Positions 10,181 to 50,003 of a DNA stretch of 64,000 bases are shown here, in pieces. The notes under the pieces were generated by a model. The model saw nothing but the letters and a program-made list of their open reading frames with translations. It had not been told where the DNA came from and did not search any database. The stretch comes from Collinsella tanakaei YIT 12063 (GTDB lineage: Bacteria; Actinomycetota; Coriobacteriia; Coriobacteriales; Coriobacteriaceae): assembly GCF_000225705.1 (NCBI RefSeq), contig NZ_JH126468.1, positions 184,818 to 248,817 of the forward strand. Reading direction: 5' to 3'. Position 1 is the first letter of the stretch. Each line of letters begins with the position of its first letter. The position numbers were made by a program, and so were the translations under genes.

Positions 10181-10582
10181 CTACTTCCATCCGGGGATGT
10201 CGGCACCCGCGGTGAGCATCGTGGACAGGATGGTCAGGATAACGACGATCAGCAGGAACACGACCGCGGTACCGGCGATAACCATGAGGGCGCTGAGGGC
10301 GAAGCGGTGCTCGCGCGACAACTCGCGCGGGGCGGCTGCCAAGGGCGTCTCGCACACCGACGGGACACTCGCCGAGCCCGTGAGGATGAAGTCCGTGCTC
10401 ACACGATAGATTTGCGCGAGCTTGACCACGTTGTCGACCTCGGGGCGACCCTGAGCGCCCTCCCATTTCGAGATGGCCTGACGGGAAACCCCGAGCAGAT
10501 CCGCCAACTGCTCCTGCGAATAGCCGGCCTTGCGGCGAAGATCGAGCAGACGGTCGGCAAGCTGCGTCGCTGCGTCATCCAT
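10181..10582 (-). CDS. XRE-family regulator with C-terminal membrane helix
   Basis: This 133-residue protein has an N-terminal helix-turn-helix (YSQEQLADLLGVSRQAISKWE, residues about 10-65). A single hydrophobic helix (about 98-122) lies close to the C-terminus. An AAGGAGG site precedes the ATG. The layout repeats that of the regulator at 0.8 kb, a membrane-tethered XRE protein. It lies upstream of, and in the same direction as, the MacB-like ABC pair, which is its most likely target. Confidence 0.82.
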   Translation of the reverse strand: MDDAATQLADRLLDLRRKAGYSQEQLADLLGVSRQAISKWEGAQGRPEVDNVVKLAQIYRVSTDFILTGSASVPSVCETPLAAAPRELSREHRFALSALMVIAGTAVVFLLIVVILTILSTMLTAGADIPGWK

Positions 10583-11400: not shown

Positions 11401-12780
11401 TTACCCCACGCCGTCCATAAGCGCCCAATGCCACGCGGGCACGACCTCGATCATTCCCTCGGGAACCTCGATCGTCGAGCGCTCGCGAAGCGTTACCACC
11501 AGACCCTTGTCCACCCCGGCATACCACATGGCGGACGCCAAAGAACCGATTTCGCGTGCTCGCGTGCGATCCGCCGTCATATCCACCGTCACCTGTATAA
11601 GGCCATATGGCTCGAGCGAAAGAGCGTCACCCACCACGAAGTCGACCTTCTCCCGCTTTGCGCCGGGAACGGTGAGCGAGCAAACCGTGTCAATCCGGGC
11701 CGATGCCGCTCGGCGAGCGAGCTCGTTGTGCACGGCGGTCTCCAGCCGCTTGCCAGCATCTTGCTGGCTCGCGCGGGAGACGGCGTGCGCCATGCCGGTG
11801 TCGACGGCATACACCTTGCGGGTCGCCGTGCTCGACGGGGAGAATGACGTGGAATACTCGCTTACGCCATCGTAGAGATGTGCCTGCTCGAGCAGTCGCG
11901 ACACCTCCGAGACAGTCTCCCACGTTGTTGGATACCCCACCTTTTTCAGGCTCGCCACAAGGCTGTTGACCGACAACTCGCAACCGGTGTTGCGCAGCCC
12001 ATACAGCGCGACTTGGTTCGCCAGCGCCACGCCGGCACGCGGGTACCTGTCGACCACGTCGCGCACCACGACATCGCGAACGTACGTCTGCAGCAACGCC
12101 ATACGCTCGGCGCCGCCGCAGCCCTGCGCCCCAGGAAAACCGCCCTCAATCAAATACCGATCAAAAGCGGCTTCCAACGAACTTCTCATCGTCGGAGCAA
12201 CGGAACCTGCAAGCGCAAGGTCGTCCGCATCTGGAAGATCGATGCCATTAAATAGGCAGAATTCTACAAAGGACAGGGGGCGCATAGGATGCTCGAGAAG
12301 CCTGCCGCGAAACCGGCTCGCGATCTCGTCAGCGGACAGCTTGGACGACGAACCCGTCACCACAAGCGTCACGCGCTCTCGCTCCGCGATTCTCTGACAG
12401 AATCCTTCCCAATCGTCCGCCTCTTGGACCTCATCGAGGAATAGGTAGCATCCTTCGCTTCTGGCAGAAGGGACCTGGCGCCAGTATTCCTCAACGACAT
12501 CATTGAGCAACGCAGGAGGCGTCGGTCGAAGCCTGTCATCTGCGAAGTTGAAGTAGAACACCCGATCGCGCGGCACGCCGCAGGACAACAACTGCTGGAT
12601 GAGCTGGAACGCGTAGAACGTCTTGCCACACCGACGGATACCCGTAATGGCATGGATGAGATTGAACGGCGCGGGCTCGGGCAGCGCCTCGACAACCTCG
12701 CGGCGCGGACGGGGGCTCGGAAACTCAAAAGCACGAGCCTCTTGCACAAGATCGGCATAGTCAAACGCAGTCGGCGACAT
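11401..12780 (-). CDS. AAA_14/DUF4143 ATPase (copy A)
   Basis: This 459-residue stand-alone ATPase has a P-loop in GIRRCGKTFYAF (about residue 55-66) and Walker B LFLDEVQE. It has a sensor-1-like VVTGSSSKL, and the PLSFVEFCLFNG segment typical of AAA_14 proteins. A middle winged-helix region follows, then a C-terminal DUF4143 nuclease-like domain (ending VDKGLVVTLRE and VVPAWHWALMDG). These genes are common in gut bacteria, often in many paralogues, with no proven function. The ATG is preceded by AGGAAGGGGAG. Directly upstream are two tandem inverted repeats with a 33-bp period, and the second copy at 46 kb has the same arrangement with different sequence. Confidence 0.85.
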   Translation of the reverse strand: MSPTAFDYADLVQEARAFEFPSPRPRREVVEALPEPAPFNLIHAITGIRRCGKTFYAFQLIQQLLSCGVPRDRVFYFNFADDRLRPTPPALLNDVVEEYWRQVPSARSEGCYLFLDEVQEADDWEGFCQRIAERERVTLVVTGSSSKLSADEIASRFRGRLLEHPMRPLSFVEFCLFNGIDLPDADDLALAGSVAPTMRSSLEAAFDRYLIEGGFPGAQGCGGAERMALLQTYVRDVVVRDVVDRYPRAGVALANQVALYGLRNTGCELSVNSLVASLKKVGYPTTWETVSEVSRLLEQAHLYDGVSEYSTSFSPSSTATRKVYAVDTGMAHAVSRASQQDAGKRLETAVHNELARRAASARIDTVCSLTVPGAKREKVDFVVGDALSLEPYGLIQVTVDMTADRTRAREIGSLASAMWYAGVDKGLVVTLRERSTIEVPEGMIEVVPAWHWALMDGVG

Positions 12781-12814
12781 TGGATACTCCCCTTCCTCCG
12801 CCATCAGTATACCA

Positions 12815-12870
12815 ACTTCTCTTCAATGGAGAGAAGTTTAAGCTTTTTCTTCACTTCGTTGGAGAGAAGT
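12815..12870 (-). promoter_or_regulatory. Tandem inverted-repeat operator candidate of AAA ATPase copy A
   Basis: Two 23-bp units begin exactly 33 bp apart. The first is a perfect inverted repeat, ACTTCTCT-N7-AGAGAAGT. The second keeps the right arm and most of the left arm (19 of 23 positions identical). They lie 35-90 bp upstream of the ATG, where a promoter is expected. Self-regulation is inferred, not shown. Confidence 0.5.
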
Positions 12871-12987
12871 ATGAGGGCACGCTTGAGGCAGCGCCCGTTC
12901 CCTTACGCACTCGAGCCGGTATTCGCGCACATAAGGAAATGCGATACCAACCATGACATATGAAGGAGTTTCGAACGGCACCGAGTC

Positions 12988-13058
12988 CACAAGACGCCTC
13001 CGGCAGGAGGCGGCCGCTTGGTATGGCGAGCTTTAACAAGTTGAACAAAGTTAAACAA
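12988..13058. repeat. 71-bp dispersed repeat, copy 2
   Basis: This is the partner of 6933-7003. On the plus strand this copy ends a tiny frame (MTYEGVSNGTESTRR...WYGEL) that starts at 12955 and stops inside the repeat. Copy 1 retains the same RLxQEAAAWYGEL ending. I cannot tell whether a small peptide or the end of a lost gene is encoded. Apart from this repeat and the ATPase operator, the 12781-13174 spacer shows nothing else. Confidence 0.65.
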
Positions 13059-13174: not shown

Positions 13175-14269
13175 GTGACTCAATTCGATTTCAACAGGGC
13201 GCTTGCCAGCCTCATGACTCCGGAGGTCGTATCCGCTCTCGGGAACATCCGGGAGCTCAAGGGCAAGACGTCCCTGCTCTCCGCCGCCCATCCCAACCGC
13301 TTCGCCGCCTTGGTGGAGGTGGCCAAGATTCAGAGCACGAGCGCTTCGAACAAGATCGAAAACATCTCGACCTCCGACAGGCGCCTGCACGAGCTTATGC
13401 TCGAGAACGTGGAGCCGAAAAACCGCGACGAGCGTGAGATCGCCGGGTACCGGTACGTCTTGGACATCGTCCACGAGAGCCACGATAACATCCCCATCAC
13501 GCCCGGCGTCATCCTCCAGCTTCACCGCGACCTATACCGTTTCTCCGGAGATTCCCATGCAGGCAGATGGAAGGACTCCGATAACGTCATCGCCGAGCGA
13601 ACCGCCCAAGGCGAGCTCGTCGCACGTTTTATCCCCACGTCCGCCGCCGCAACGTCCGGTGCCATCGAGGCCATCTGCAACGAATATCGCAAGCAGGTCG
13701 AGGCCGTGGTGTACGACCCCCTGCTTGTCTCCCTTGTGTTCGCGTTCGACTTCGCGAGCATCCATCCGTTCAACGACGGCAATGGACGCATGAGCAGGTT
13801 GGTCACGCTGCTGCTCATGTACCGCTCTGGATACGACGTGGGAAAGTACGTCTCAATCGAAAGGGAGATCGAGCGAACGAAGGAGACCTATTACGAGGCC
13901 CTCGCCGCAAGCTCCCATGGCTGGCGGGAGGGCGATAACGACTACACCCCCTTTATCACGTACATGCTAGGTATCATCGGCGCGTGCTACCGAGAGCTCG
14001 CCGACAGGTTCTCTCTGGTGGGCGCCCCCGCGGGCAACGAAGATGCGGTCCGTGCGTTTCTCGACAAGCAGCTCGGCACCGCGACAAAACGGGAAATCCT
14101 GGACGCCAACCCCGGCATGAGTCAACGCACGCTCGAGCGCATTCTCTCAAAGCTACAGCAAGAGGGCGTTATCGAGAAAGTTGGCGCAGCGCGATCGACC
14201 GCGTACCGGCGACTATGGGACACCCCCTCTCCGGCAAACCTTCCCCATGAAAGAACGGAAACCAGATGA
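13175..14269 (+). CDS. Fic family protein (probable AMPylase) with N-terminal inhibitory motif and C-terminal winged helix
   Basis: This 364-residue Fic protein carries the full catalytic loop HPFNDGNGRMSR near residue 196-207, so nucleotidyl transfer should be possible. An S-x3-E-N inhibitory motif (SNKIEN) lies in the N-terminal helix near residues 57-62, which marks a class II Fic that self-inhibits by an Arg clash. The C-terminal 60 residues (TKREILDANPGMSQRTLERILSKLQQEGVIEKV) look like a winged helix, suggesting DNA-binding autoregulation. The start is GTG with a GAGGA site. Its stop overlaps the LysR start by 4 bp (ATGA), an unexpected coupling. Confidence 0.88.
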   Translation: MTQFDFNRALASLMTPEVVSALGNIRELKGKTSLLSAAHPNRFAALVEVAKIQSTSASNKIENISTSDRRLHELMLENVEPKNRDEREIAGYRYVLDIVHESHDNIPITPGVILQLHRDLYRFSGDSHAGRWKDSDNVIAERTAQGELVARFIPTSAAATSGAIEAICNEYRKQVEAVVYDPLLVSLVFAFDFASIHPFNDGNGRMSRLVTLLLMYRSGYDVGKYVSIEREIERTKETYYEALAASSHGWREGDNDYTPFITYMLGIIGACYRELADRFSLVGAPAGNEDAVRAFLDKQLGTATKREILDANPGMSQRTLERILSKLQQEGVIEKVGAARSTAYRRLWDTPSPANLPHERTETR

Positions 14270-47584: not shown

Positions 47585-47644
47585 AATCTTGCCACGCTAC
47601 GTTGCAAGATTTGTATACATCTTGCAATCCTACGTTGCAAGATT
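47585..47644 (-). promoter_or_regulatory. Tandem inverted-repeat operator candidate of AAA ATPase copy B
   Basis: Two inverted repeats, ATCTTGC-N11-GCAAGAT, occur at 47586-47610 and 47619-47643, exactly 33 bp apart. A 17-bp direct repeat starting CTACGTTGCAAGATTTG (47597 and 47630) covers the right half of both. The sequence is unrelated to the copy A operator, but the period is the same. Confidence 0.55.
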
Positions 47645-47710: not shown

Positions 47711-48412
47711 CTATCCCTCGATGGTATAGCCGACGCCCCAGATGTTCTTGATGAAACGCGGGCTCTGCGCGTCGTCGCCGATCTTCTCGCGCAGATGGCG
47801 GATATGCACCATCACCGTGTTGTTGGACGAGGACATGAACTCCTCGCCCCACACCGCTTGGAACAAGTCCGCGACCGGCACCACGCGCCCGCGGTTCTCA
47901 GCCAAATACAGCAAGATGGAATACTCGAGCGGCGTTAAGCGCACCGGCTTCTCGTCCACCATCACGCTACGCGAATCACGGTTGATGACAAGTCCGTTAA
48001 AGCCGATCTCAGAGGCCTCTTCCTCTGCCTGGCCGCGGGCTCCGTACTTGGTGTAGCGACGGAGCTGCGCCTTGACGCGGGCGACCAGCTCAAGCGGGCG
48101 GAAGGGCTTGACCACGTAATCGTCCGCACCCAGCGAGAGGCCCTCGATCTTGTCAGTCTGCGAGTCTCGCGCGGTCAGCATGATGACGGGATACGTATGG
48201 TTGTTGCGGATGGTGCGCAGCAGCTCGAAGCCGTCGACGTCCGGCAGCATGATGTCCAGCACCGCCAGGTCGAACTCGTTTGTCAGGATCTCTCGCGCCG
48301 CATCCGCTCCCGTGTAGGCAAGCGTTACCTGGTAGCCCTCGTTCTTTAAATAGATTCCAACCAGGTCGGTAATGGTCTTCTCGTCATCGACAACAAGGAT
48401 ATGCGCGTCCAT
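47711..48412 (-). CDS. OmpR-family response regulator, VanR type
   Basis: This 233-residue regulator has the receiver motifs ILVVDDEK, VLDIMLPDVDGFELL (phospho-Asp near residue 51), MLTARD and VVKPF. A winged helix follows with TPLEYSILLYLAENRGRVVPVADLFQAVWGEEF and NTVMVHIRHLREKIG, closely like VanR. GGGGAGG precedes the ATG at MDAHILVV; the longer frame is not real. It is divergent from the D,D-carboxypeptidase gene with about 150 bp between starts, making that gene its most likely target. Confidence 0.9.
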   Translation of the reverse strand: MDAHILVVDDEKTITDLVGIYLKNEGYQVTLAYTGADAAREILTNEFDLAVLDIMLPDVDGFELLRTIRNNHTYPVIMLTARDSQTDKIEGLSLGADDYVVKPFRPLELVARVKAQLRRYTKYGARGQAEEEASEIGFNGLVINRDSRSVMVDEKPVRLTPLEYSILLYLAENRGRVVPVADLFQAVWGEEFMSSSNNTVMVHIRHLREKIGDDAQSPRFIKNIWGVGYTIEG

Positions 48413-48563
48413 GCGACCTCCCCTTTGGGCTATCCGTCTGGCGCCAACGCGACCCCCGATTAATCGCATGGCAGCAGGTATACTCATCTTTAGCCAGTCT
48501 ACACTCATTTGCGCGCGGCGTCGCAACCGCACCGCCGGGTCACATTCTTTTAAGGTGGAAACC

Positions 48564-50003
48564 ATGCTCAAACACAGACAACCGCCGCATCGCCCCCGTA
48601 AGTTCCGCATTCGCGCCCTTGCCTCCGCTGCAACCCTTGCGCTTGTGGGAGCGCTGACGGCGCCGTCTGCCTATGCGGACGTCCGCGACACGGATATCAT
48701 CTGCGGCGCATCCTATGCGGAGCAAGCGCGCGCAGCGGAAGATCAGCCCGATATTGTTGCCGCCGCCGCGATTGTTGTTGGCCAGGACGGAACAGCCTAT
48801 TTTGAGCGCGATGCCGACGCGGAGGTAAAGATCGCCTCGCTCACCAAGGTCATGACGGCCATCATCGCGCTTGAAAATGCCCAATCTGATGACACCATAA
48901 CGGTAGACCAACGTGCGGCCACCGTTGGCCAGTCGACCGCCGACCTTAAAGAGGGCGACAAGCTCCCCCTCTCCGAGGCGCTCAAGGGCCTTATGATGCC
49001 GTCTGGCAATGACGCCGCCATGGCGATCGCAACGTCTGTGGGAGCGCTCATCGACCCGCAAAGCGATGACCCCTACCAGACTTTTATCGACGCCATGAAC
49101 ACCAAGGCGGCGGAGCTGGGCATGGACCACACGGTCTTCGCCAACCCCCATGGCCTGGACTTCGATGGCTGGGAGGGCGATTTCCACTCGACCGCGCGCG
49201 ACGTGGCAACCATGTTTGCCCACGCGATGAAAAACGAGGCGTTCCGCTCGATTGTAGCGGACACCGATAACCACATCACCGTCACCAGCGCGGACGGAAG
49301 CGAGCGCACTATAGAGCTTAAGCAGCGCAACGAGATATTGGGGCAGGATGGCAACATTGGCGGCAAGACCGGCGGCACCTACATCGCCCTTTCCAATTTT
49401 GTTGGCGCGTTCAACCGAGAGACGGGCGGCGAGATCTACACCGTTGTACTGGGCAGCGAGACCAGCGACACCCGCTGGGATGACACCCGCACCCTGGCCA
49501 ACTGGTACTACGACCACGTGGTTAGCTACCCCGTTGCCAGCAGCCGCACGCAAGCCGTAACCGCCGAGGGCACGCCGCTGGTGGGCCGCGCCGCCCATGA
49601 CGACTGGACGGACAAGACCGTCGACGTCACGCTTGCAGATCCCGAGCAGGCGATCTCGCTGTTTAGCCTGGCAGGCGATGTGGAGGCCGCGCTTGACATC
49701 GACCGGGTGCAGGGCGACGTAAAGCGCGGCGACACCGTGGGCGAACTGGTGCTGAGCCAGCAGGGCCGCGAGGTCGCGCGCGCCGAGCTTGTCGCCGCCG
49801 AGAACCAATCCGCACCCCAAGGCATCGACTGGCTTATGGTCCAGCTCGACCGTTTAGTACGCACCGTTTTGGGCGAGGACGCCACGGCTCAAAACCAAGA
49901 GCTTATAGAACCCGTCGACCCGCAGGATCTTGACGCCGTTGGCGCTGACAACAACGCCGCCAGCGACAGCGACGCCGCAGCCGCCGCGCAGCCCGCTAGC
50001 TAA
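48564..50003 (+). CDS. D-alanyl-D-alanine carboxypeptidase (peptidase S11, class A low-MW PBP)
   Basis: This 479-residue exported enzyme trims the terminal D-Ala of peptidoglycan stem peptides. A signal peptide lies at residues about 12-38 (ALASAATLALVGALTAPSAYA). The catalytic motifs are SLTK near residue 92, SGN near 147 and KTGG near 267, all intact. The C-terminal part (about 340-420) is a PBP5-like beta domain. It is followed by a low-complexity Ala/Asp tail and no clear membrane anchor beyond an amphipathic WLMVQLDRLVRTVL helix. AAGGTGG precedes the ATG. It is divergent from vanR-like and overlaps the phnPP stop by 8 bp. Confidence 0.92.
   Translation: MLKHRQPPHRPRKFRIRALASAATLALVGALTAPSAYADVRDTDIICGASYAEQARAAEDQPDIVAAAAIVVGQDGTAYFERDADAEVKIASLTKVMTAIIALENAQSDDTITVDQRAATVGQSTADLKEGDKLPLSEALKGLMMPSGNDAAMAIATSVGALIDPQSDDPYQTFIDAMNTKAAELGMDHTVFANPHGLDFDGWEGDFHSTARDVATMFAHAMKNEAFRSIVADTDNHITVTSADGSERTIELKQRNEILGQDGNIGGKTGGTYIALSNFVGAFNRETGGEIYTVVLGSETSDTRWDDTRTLANWYYDHVVSYPVASSRTQAVTAEGTPLVGRAAHDDWTDKTVDVTLADPEQAISLFSLAGDVEAALDIDRVQGDVKRGDTVGELVLSQQGREVARAELVAAENQSAPQGIDWLMVQLDRLVRTVLGEDATAQNQELIEPVDPQDLDAVGADNNAASDSDAAAAAQPAS

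Follow-up and report, generated by a model that had tools for sequence, protein, structure and literature searches.

What are two palindromes, set at a fixed distance from one another just before an ATPase gene, meant to do, and which molecule reads them? The question is raised by the window analysed here, a stretch of 64,000 nucleotides from Collinsella tanakaei YIT 12063, which carries two genes of the AAA_14/DUF4143 family, copy A and copy B, each preceded by such a pair (Table 1). In our judgement the palindromes are likely to be an operator in the promoter of the ATPase gene they precede, with the ATPase itself as the most likely reader.

Table 1. Genes, operator units and promoter elements of the two ATPase loci (positions in the window).
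Feature	Position	Strand	Basis or remark
Copy A, AAA_14/DUF4143 ATPase	11401..12780	-	459 aa from ATG 12780; Pfam and PADLOC
Shine-Dalgarno-like GGGGAG before ATG 12780	12787..12792	-	Sequence
Putative -10 box TATACT, directly downstream of A1 in gene direction	12806..12811	-	Read from sequence
Operator unit A1, perfect palindrome ACTTCTCT-N7-AGAGAAGT	12815..12837	.	Sequence; kept by the orthologues at 62% and 60%
Operator unit A2, imperfect palindrome TCTTCACT-N7-AGAGAAGT, 2 mismatches	12848..12870	.	33 bp from A1
Copy B, AAA_14/DUF4143 ATPase, 453 aa	46214..47575	-	Pfam, PADLOC; about 37% identical to A
Operator unit B1, ATCTTGCCA-N7-TTGCAAGAT, 1 mismatch	47586..47610	.	Sequence
Putative -10 box TATACA between B1 and B2	47612..47617	-	Sequence; B orthologues have TATAAT there
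Operator unit B2, perfect palindrome ATCTTGCAA-N7-TTGCAAGAT	47619..47643	.	Sequence

A pair of palindromes at the promoter of copy A

The first possible start codon of copy A, which gives its longest reading, is at 12804; ATG 12780 is the likelier start, since GGGGAG precedes it and orthologues agree with it. With this start, the two units lie some 35-90 bp upstream of the ATG. They begin 33 bp apart and the first is perfect, just as a sequence-only reading of this DNA had reported; the symmetry of A1 extends to AACTTCTCTTCAATGGAGAGAAGTT at 12814-12838. They overlap the promoter region of copy A's own gene, and both lie upstream of the putative -10 box, the position of which is conserved in both orthologues (62% and 60%). 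A consensus -35 is absent from this promoter, and the TATACT box was missed by a scan for consensus promoters. When the 150-bp stretch was shuffled with its dinucleotides preserved, none of 2000 shuffles attained the direct-repeat score, and 1/300 the palindrome score. The word is private: a pattern search of the whole genome (2,492,085 bp), allowing up to 2 mismatches, finds only the A1 and A2 sites, and the reversed pattern used as a control gives 0 matches. It is also conserved where its surroundings are not, as had been expected of close orthologues: in those at 62% and 60% (G018, G033) the half-sites AACTTCTC/GAGAAGTT are still present, as is the -10 box, while most of the remaining DNA has diverged.

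Several features of the neighbourhood deserve mention. A gene for an HTH_3 regulator, CI-like, lies downstream of copy A (10181-10582, - strand), and a Fic protein gene (13175-14269, + strand; PADLOC SoFic 2.5e-37) is divergent from it; a tandem operator was looked for before this Fic gene and not found. Another locus of the genus (L253) has an intact ATPase-like gene (1552-2628, - strand), the 3' end of which resembles, when compared by eye, window positions 12880-13010; this suggests that a decayed neighbour ATPase lies upstream of copy A. The same locus (L253:1318-1513, G032) has a remnant of gene A, reduced to roughly the first 50 codons (80% identity), where only one of the two palindromes survives.

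A second copy with the same period and another word

The units of copy B are likewise 33 bp apart and their word differs from that of A, so that the claim of a second ATPase gene with equal period and unrelated sequence holds. With up to 3 mismatches allowed, the B word occurs in the whole genome at B1, at B2 and at one place that has 3 mismatches. The orthologues of B (L063-L079, L083) have three 33-bp units, the last two of which form a 60-bp dyad centred on a -10 box, TATAAT, and the symmetry of this dyad is kept via paired changes at three positions. Because its upstream half precedes the expected transcription start, the dyad argues for an element that acts at the level of DNA. This bears on a reading that we hold to be extremely unlikely, namely that the repeats are an RNA-level element, a leader hairpin or terminator, or that they arose by chance. 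It is true that unit A1, read on the + strand, is a terminator-like hairpin; against this, both units of copy A stand upstream of the putative -10, and in the B orthologues, where the -10 box is between the units, symmetry was maintained although no transcript is expected to include the upstream unit.

Two further observations concern the B type. A broken gene (L082/L103, G029:C1:21673-22647), with 3 internal stops, has retained its upstream AATCTTGCAA repeats with period 33. In the window, a gene for a VanR-like response regulator (47711-48610) lies beside copy B.

The genome has nine DUF4143 matches, and those in intact genes mostly have a private array just upstream. Period 33 is found for A and B (L008 and L006) as well as for L002, where CCACATTTTTCCTTGGAACTTTGTGCGAGACT is present nearly three times. 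The period is 23 for L003, with CATTCGGATTTTGGTAC three times, and for L001, and it is 22 for L004, with TACTAGTTATAACTAGTA; no upstream array was seen for L005. A scan of a collection of genome contigs with protein A gave no more than distant homologues.

The proteins: an ATPase, a predicted winged helix and a PD-(D/E)XK-type domain

Both products exceed the curated Pfam cut-offs for AAA_14 (PF13173) and DUF4143 (PF13635), with 104.6 bits (4.9e-30) and 34.9 bits (1.6e-8) for copy A, and 112.1 and 47.7 bits for copy B. An AlphaFold model built on 10 sequences (mean pLDDT 77, pTM 0.79) predicts an ATPase, a helical, winged-helix-like segment at about 251-309 and, at the C-terminus, a domain of mixed alpha-beta type, in which the positions of a PD-(D/E)XK-type motif would be found. 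The best fold matches in the PDB are 2qby and 2v1u, Orc1/Cdc6 proteins on origin DNA (E 6e-7 to 3e-6), with low whole-chain TM-scores. A sequence search of the PDB with A returned only designer PPR proteins, which we discarded as spurious.

The E-D-ExK motif of PD-(D/E)XK nucleases is retained in 60 of the 64 clusters of the family defined below. A and B have lost the catalytic lysine, Q-x-T standing in place of ExK, and so do not show the active-nuclease motif. They belong to a small branch with Q-x-T/S (A, B, L005, L221) in which the lysine is replaced while E and D are retained. To judge from these residues, members of this branch are possibly nuclease-dead regulators, so that A and B may act without cutting.

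This distribution of the motif matters for the suggestion, made from the sequence alone, of a selfish, site-addressed element, in which the palindromes would be the address or target of a homing ATPase-nuclease that moves into or cuts DNA there. The motif's presence in nearly all clusters would suit such an element, as would the patchy distribution of the family and its carriage by plasmids or phages. We nevertheless find it quite improbable. Besides the lost lysine of A and B, exact A-type words in 45 genomes of the genus are confined to A genes and a single A-gene remnant, two additional matches with 1 mismatch fit chance, and the sites are placed at the promoter rather than flanking the gene at both ends.

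The fold also brings to mind initiators of replication, and the 22-23-bp tandem repeats of some copies look like plasmid iterons. The repeats might then be initiator sites, iterons or ORBs, serving a replication-like or DNA-melting function, with autoregulation secondary; ORBs, the sites of Orc1/Cdc6, likewise vary from origin to origin within a genome (PMC6742236). This is very unlikely in view of the presence of several copies per chromosome, of the shortness of the arrays (2-3 units), placed on the gene's own promoter, and of the fact that no replication gene stands alongside within the window.

Tandem arrays are enriched across the family

The survey covered 150 genes of the family, mainly from one phylum, grouped into 64 clusters at 50% identity, with gene starts predicted by a simple rule. 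The region from -150 to +60 was compared with that of 272 other ORFs, most of which belong to these loci too, and an array was called strong when its direct-repeat score was at least 11 with a period of 22, 23 or 32-34. Strong arrays precede 27/64 clusters and 2/272 control genes (Fisher 5e-20); at any other period the same score gives no enrichment (3/64 against 10/272). The sequence-only reading had proposed that 33-bp-period palindromes would be enriched upstream of paralogues: enrichment there is, while 33 bp is not universal, for the periods are 32-33 or 22-23, and 34 in Thermococcus. Where an array comes with a good -10 box, that box is inside it or close to its edge in 26 of 37 cases. 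Chance or local composition as a source of the repeats is excluded by this test, with its 272 control genes, together with the shuffles. Likewise, arrays are not a general trait of accessory ATPase genes: among ATPase_2 (PF01637) genes of the same phylum, 0/24 have periods of 22-23 or 32-34. In roughly half of the clusters, no clear direct repeat is seen between -150 and +60; some of these have one long inverted repeat in its place.

In some subfamilies (loci L042, L113, L115, L116, L244, L235) one promoter dyad of about 34 bp, such as TTCTCAAATCCGGAATCGATTCCGGATTTGAGAA, replaces the tandem array. Stand-alone Fic genes of the same phylum (L275, L283, L266, L262, L273, L277) also have repeats or dyads before their start (CACTATTCTAAT...), and the autocorrelation of Fic upstream regions peaks weakly at 41 bp. 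Repeats of this kind may be a common habit of single-gene systems with a built-in HTH, each family having its own period.

Period and word follow the protein

On the tree of the 64 proteins, the period (32-33 or 22-23 bp) changes 3 times, against a mean of 9.1 changes and a minimum of 5 in label shuffles, none of 300 being as low as 3. Mean autocorrelation has 32-33 as its sole peak on one side of the tree, and 23 with its double, 46, on the other; controls are flat. Farther away, a peak at 34 is common to all the Thermococcus homologues, which are distant members from archaea; a homologue from Puia (Bacteroidota) has period 23 and a Methanomethylovorans copy period 32. In other distant copies, from plasmids and phages, the period is ambiguous or there is a single inverted repeat.

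The word, too, goes with the protein. Similarity between arrays is at background (about 6) below 45% protein identity, reaches 7 at 45-60%, a median of 14 at 60-75%, and 24.5 at 75-90%, the last value coming from two pairs only. The similarity of flanking DNA does not rise above background at any protein identity up to 90%, so that conservation of the locus, with flanks at background where words match, was rejected as the cause of shared words. An example is the palindrome TTACTCAA-N4-TTGAGTAA, common to four genomes from three families of the phylum (L199, L203, L212, L218), where it occurs twice, 22 bp apart. The more precise proposal that the repeat varies together with residues of the winged helix could not be substantiated: the partial correlation is 0.09, and no domain stood out after correction for overall identity.

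If not the ATPase, the reader of the arrays could be a distinct transcription factor whose gene lies nearby or elsewhere. Regulator genes do lie near both copies, the HTH_3 gene by A and the VanR-like gene by B, and defence loci under a dedicated repressor acting on direct repeats exist, as in the case of RptR (PMC12255303). We think this unlikely all the same, as word and period track the ATPase sequence across genomes and locations, and a single external regulator predicts one common word, not a private one for each paralogue. Ten distant plasmid copies, moreover, sit in ten different neighbourhoods with no common neighbour gene. Because of this, and of the fold likeness to Orc1/Cdc6, binding by the ATPase itself is the simplest reading.

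A probable private address for autoregulation

How would self-binding by the ATPase work? One protein unit, or a dimer, would occupy each repeat, the repeats being about two or three helical turns apart, and the spacing would be set by the mode of oligomerization of each protein lineage. Since the array shares positions with the -35/-10 region or with the transcription start, a protein bound there would act as a repressor and keep its own level low. A word of its own for each paralogue would allow several copies to reside in one genome without cross-regulation. Release, whether through the ATP state, loss of the protein or invading DNA, would raise expression, and in members retaining its motif the DUF4143 nuclease domain would be the likely effector. 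The earlier proposal of orthogonal self-regulation, put forward to account for one architecture with different words, gains from the enrichment and the conservation of the arrays; the binding and the repression themselves are what we infer.

A more ambitious version extends this to the whole family: the protein of every copy would read its private word, which would also be a sensor or compatibility tag, and the same word, arriving from outside, would titrate the protein off its promoter and trigger the nuclease. The incoming word could then belong to a rival element or to a phage carrying it. We regard this extension as rather unlikely.

A DNA address found in bacteria and archaea would be the first likely sequence-specific ligand of this family, and it offers a direct route to assays. 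With many protein-operator pairs in one genome, we also have a natural set in which to study how the regulation of paralogues is kept separate and how new DNA words evolve and, with reference to engineering, a possible source of orthogonal repressor-operator parts.

A plausible role in defence

A role of the family in defence is plausible. Both proteins match the PADLOC profile PDC-S01 (1.2e-84 for A, 6.6e-86 for B), an ATPase fused to a PD-(D/E)XK domain that one report calls the fourth most common defence system (as a candidate) across prokaryotes, and validation is described there as pending for most candidates of its class (PMC12988326). In the open-access literature we found almost nothing on its mechanism; one paper there mentions DUF4143, and only in passing, and a search for AAA_14 gave unrelated ones. 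A table of Thermus thermophilus genes that change when plasmid DNA is present includes an AAA_14/DUF4143 gene, its value being 6.6 (PMC4406477). As to location, copies are found next to or within defence loci: a family gene of a Treponema saccharophilum plasmid (L240:1869-3104) has hsdR on one side and a DNA methyltransferase gene on the other, within a type I restriction-modification locus, and the Methanomethylovorans copy is near a viperin.

Comparison with known systems

Autoregulation is a known type of mechanism; private addressing throughout a family, with a spacing fixed by clade, appears to be undescribed. The sequence-only reading knew of no such paired sites for this family, and we too found no earlier description of such operators in the open-access literature. 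Plasmid iterons with an autoregulated Rep gene are tandem repeats of about 22 bp near the gene that encodes their reader. The present family differs in being mostly chromosomal, with many paralogues, two classes of period and, in the 33-bp class, palindromic units. In Orc1/Cdc6, an AAA+ domain and a winged helix together read partly palindromic elements that differ between the origins and paralogues of one genome (PMC6742236). Our family has in addition the DUF4143/PD-(D/E)XK domain, and its copies of the site, two or three in phase, are on the gene's own promoter; a replication function is very unlikely here, and the likeness is one of predicted fold.

With respect to PDC-S01, A and B match its models but belong to the branch that lacks the catalytic lysine, and operators or regulation have no place in its description, as far as the accessible text of that report goes (PMC12988326), whereas arrays are seen here. 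Finally, negative autoregulation via repeated operators is known at defence loci, from AbiEi-type toxin-antitoxin systems (PMC7319586) and from RptR (PMC12255303). In those systems binding falls to a separate small protein, an antitoxin or a repressor, whereas here the likely reader is the single-gene effector itself.
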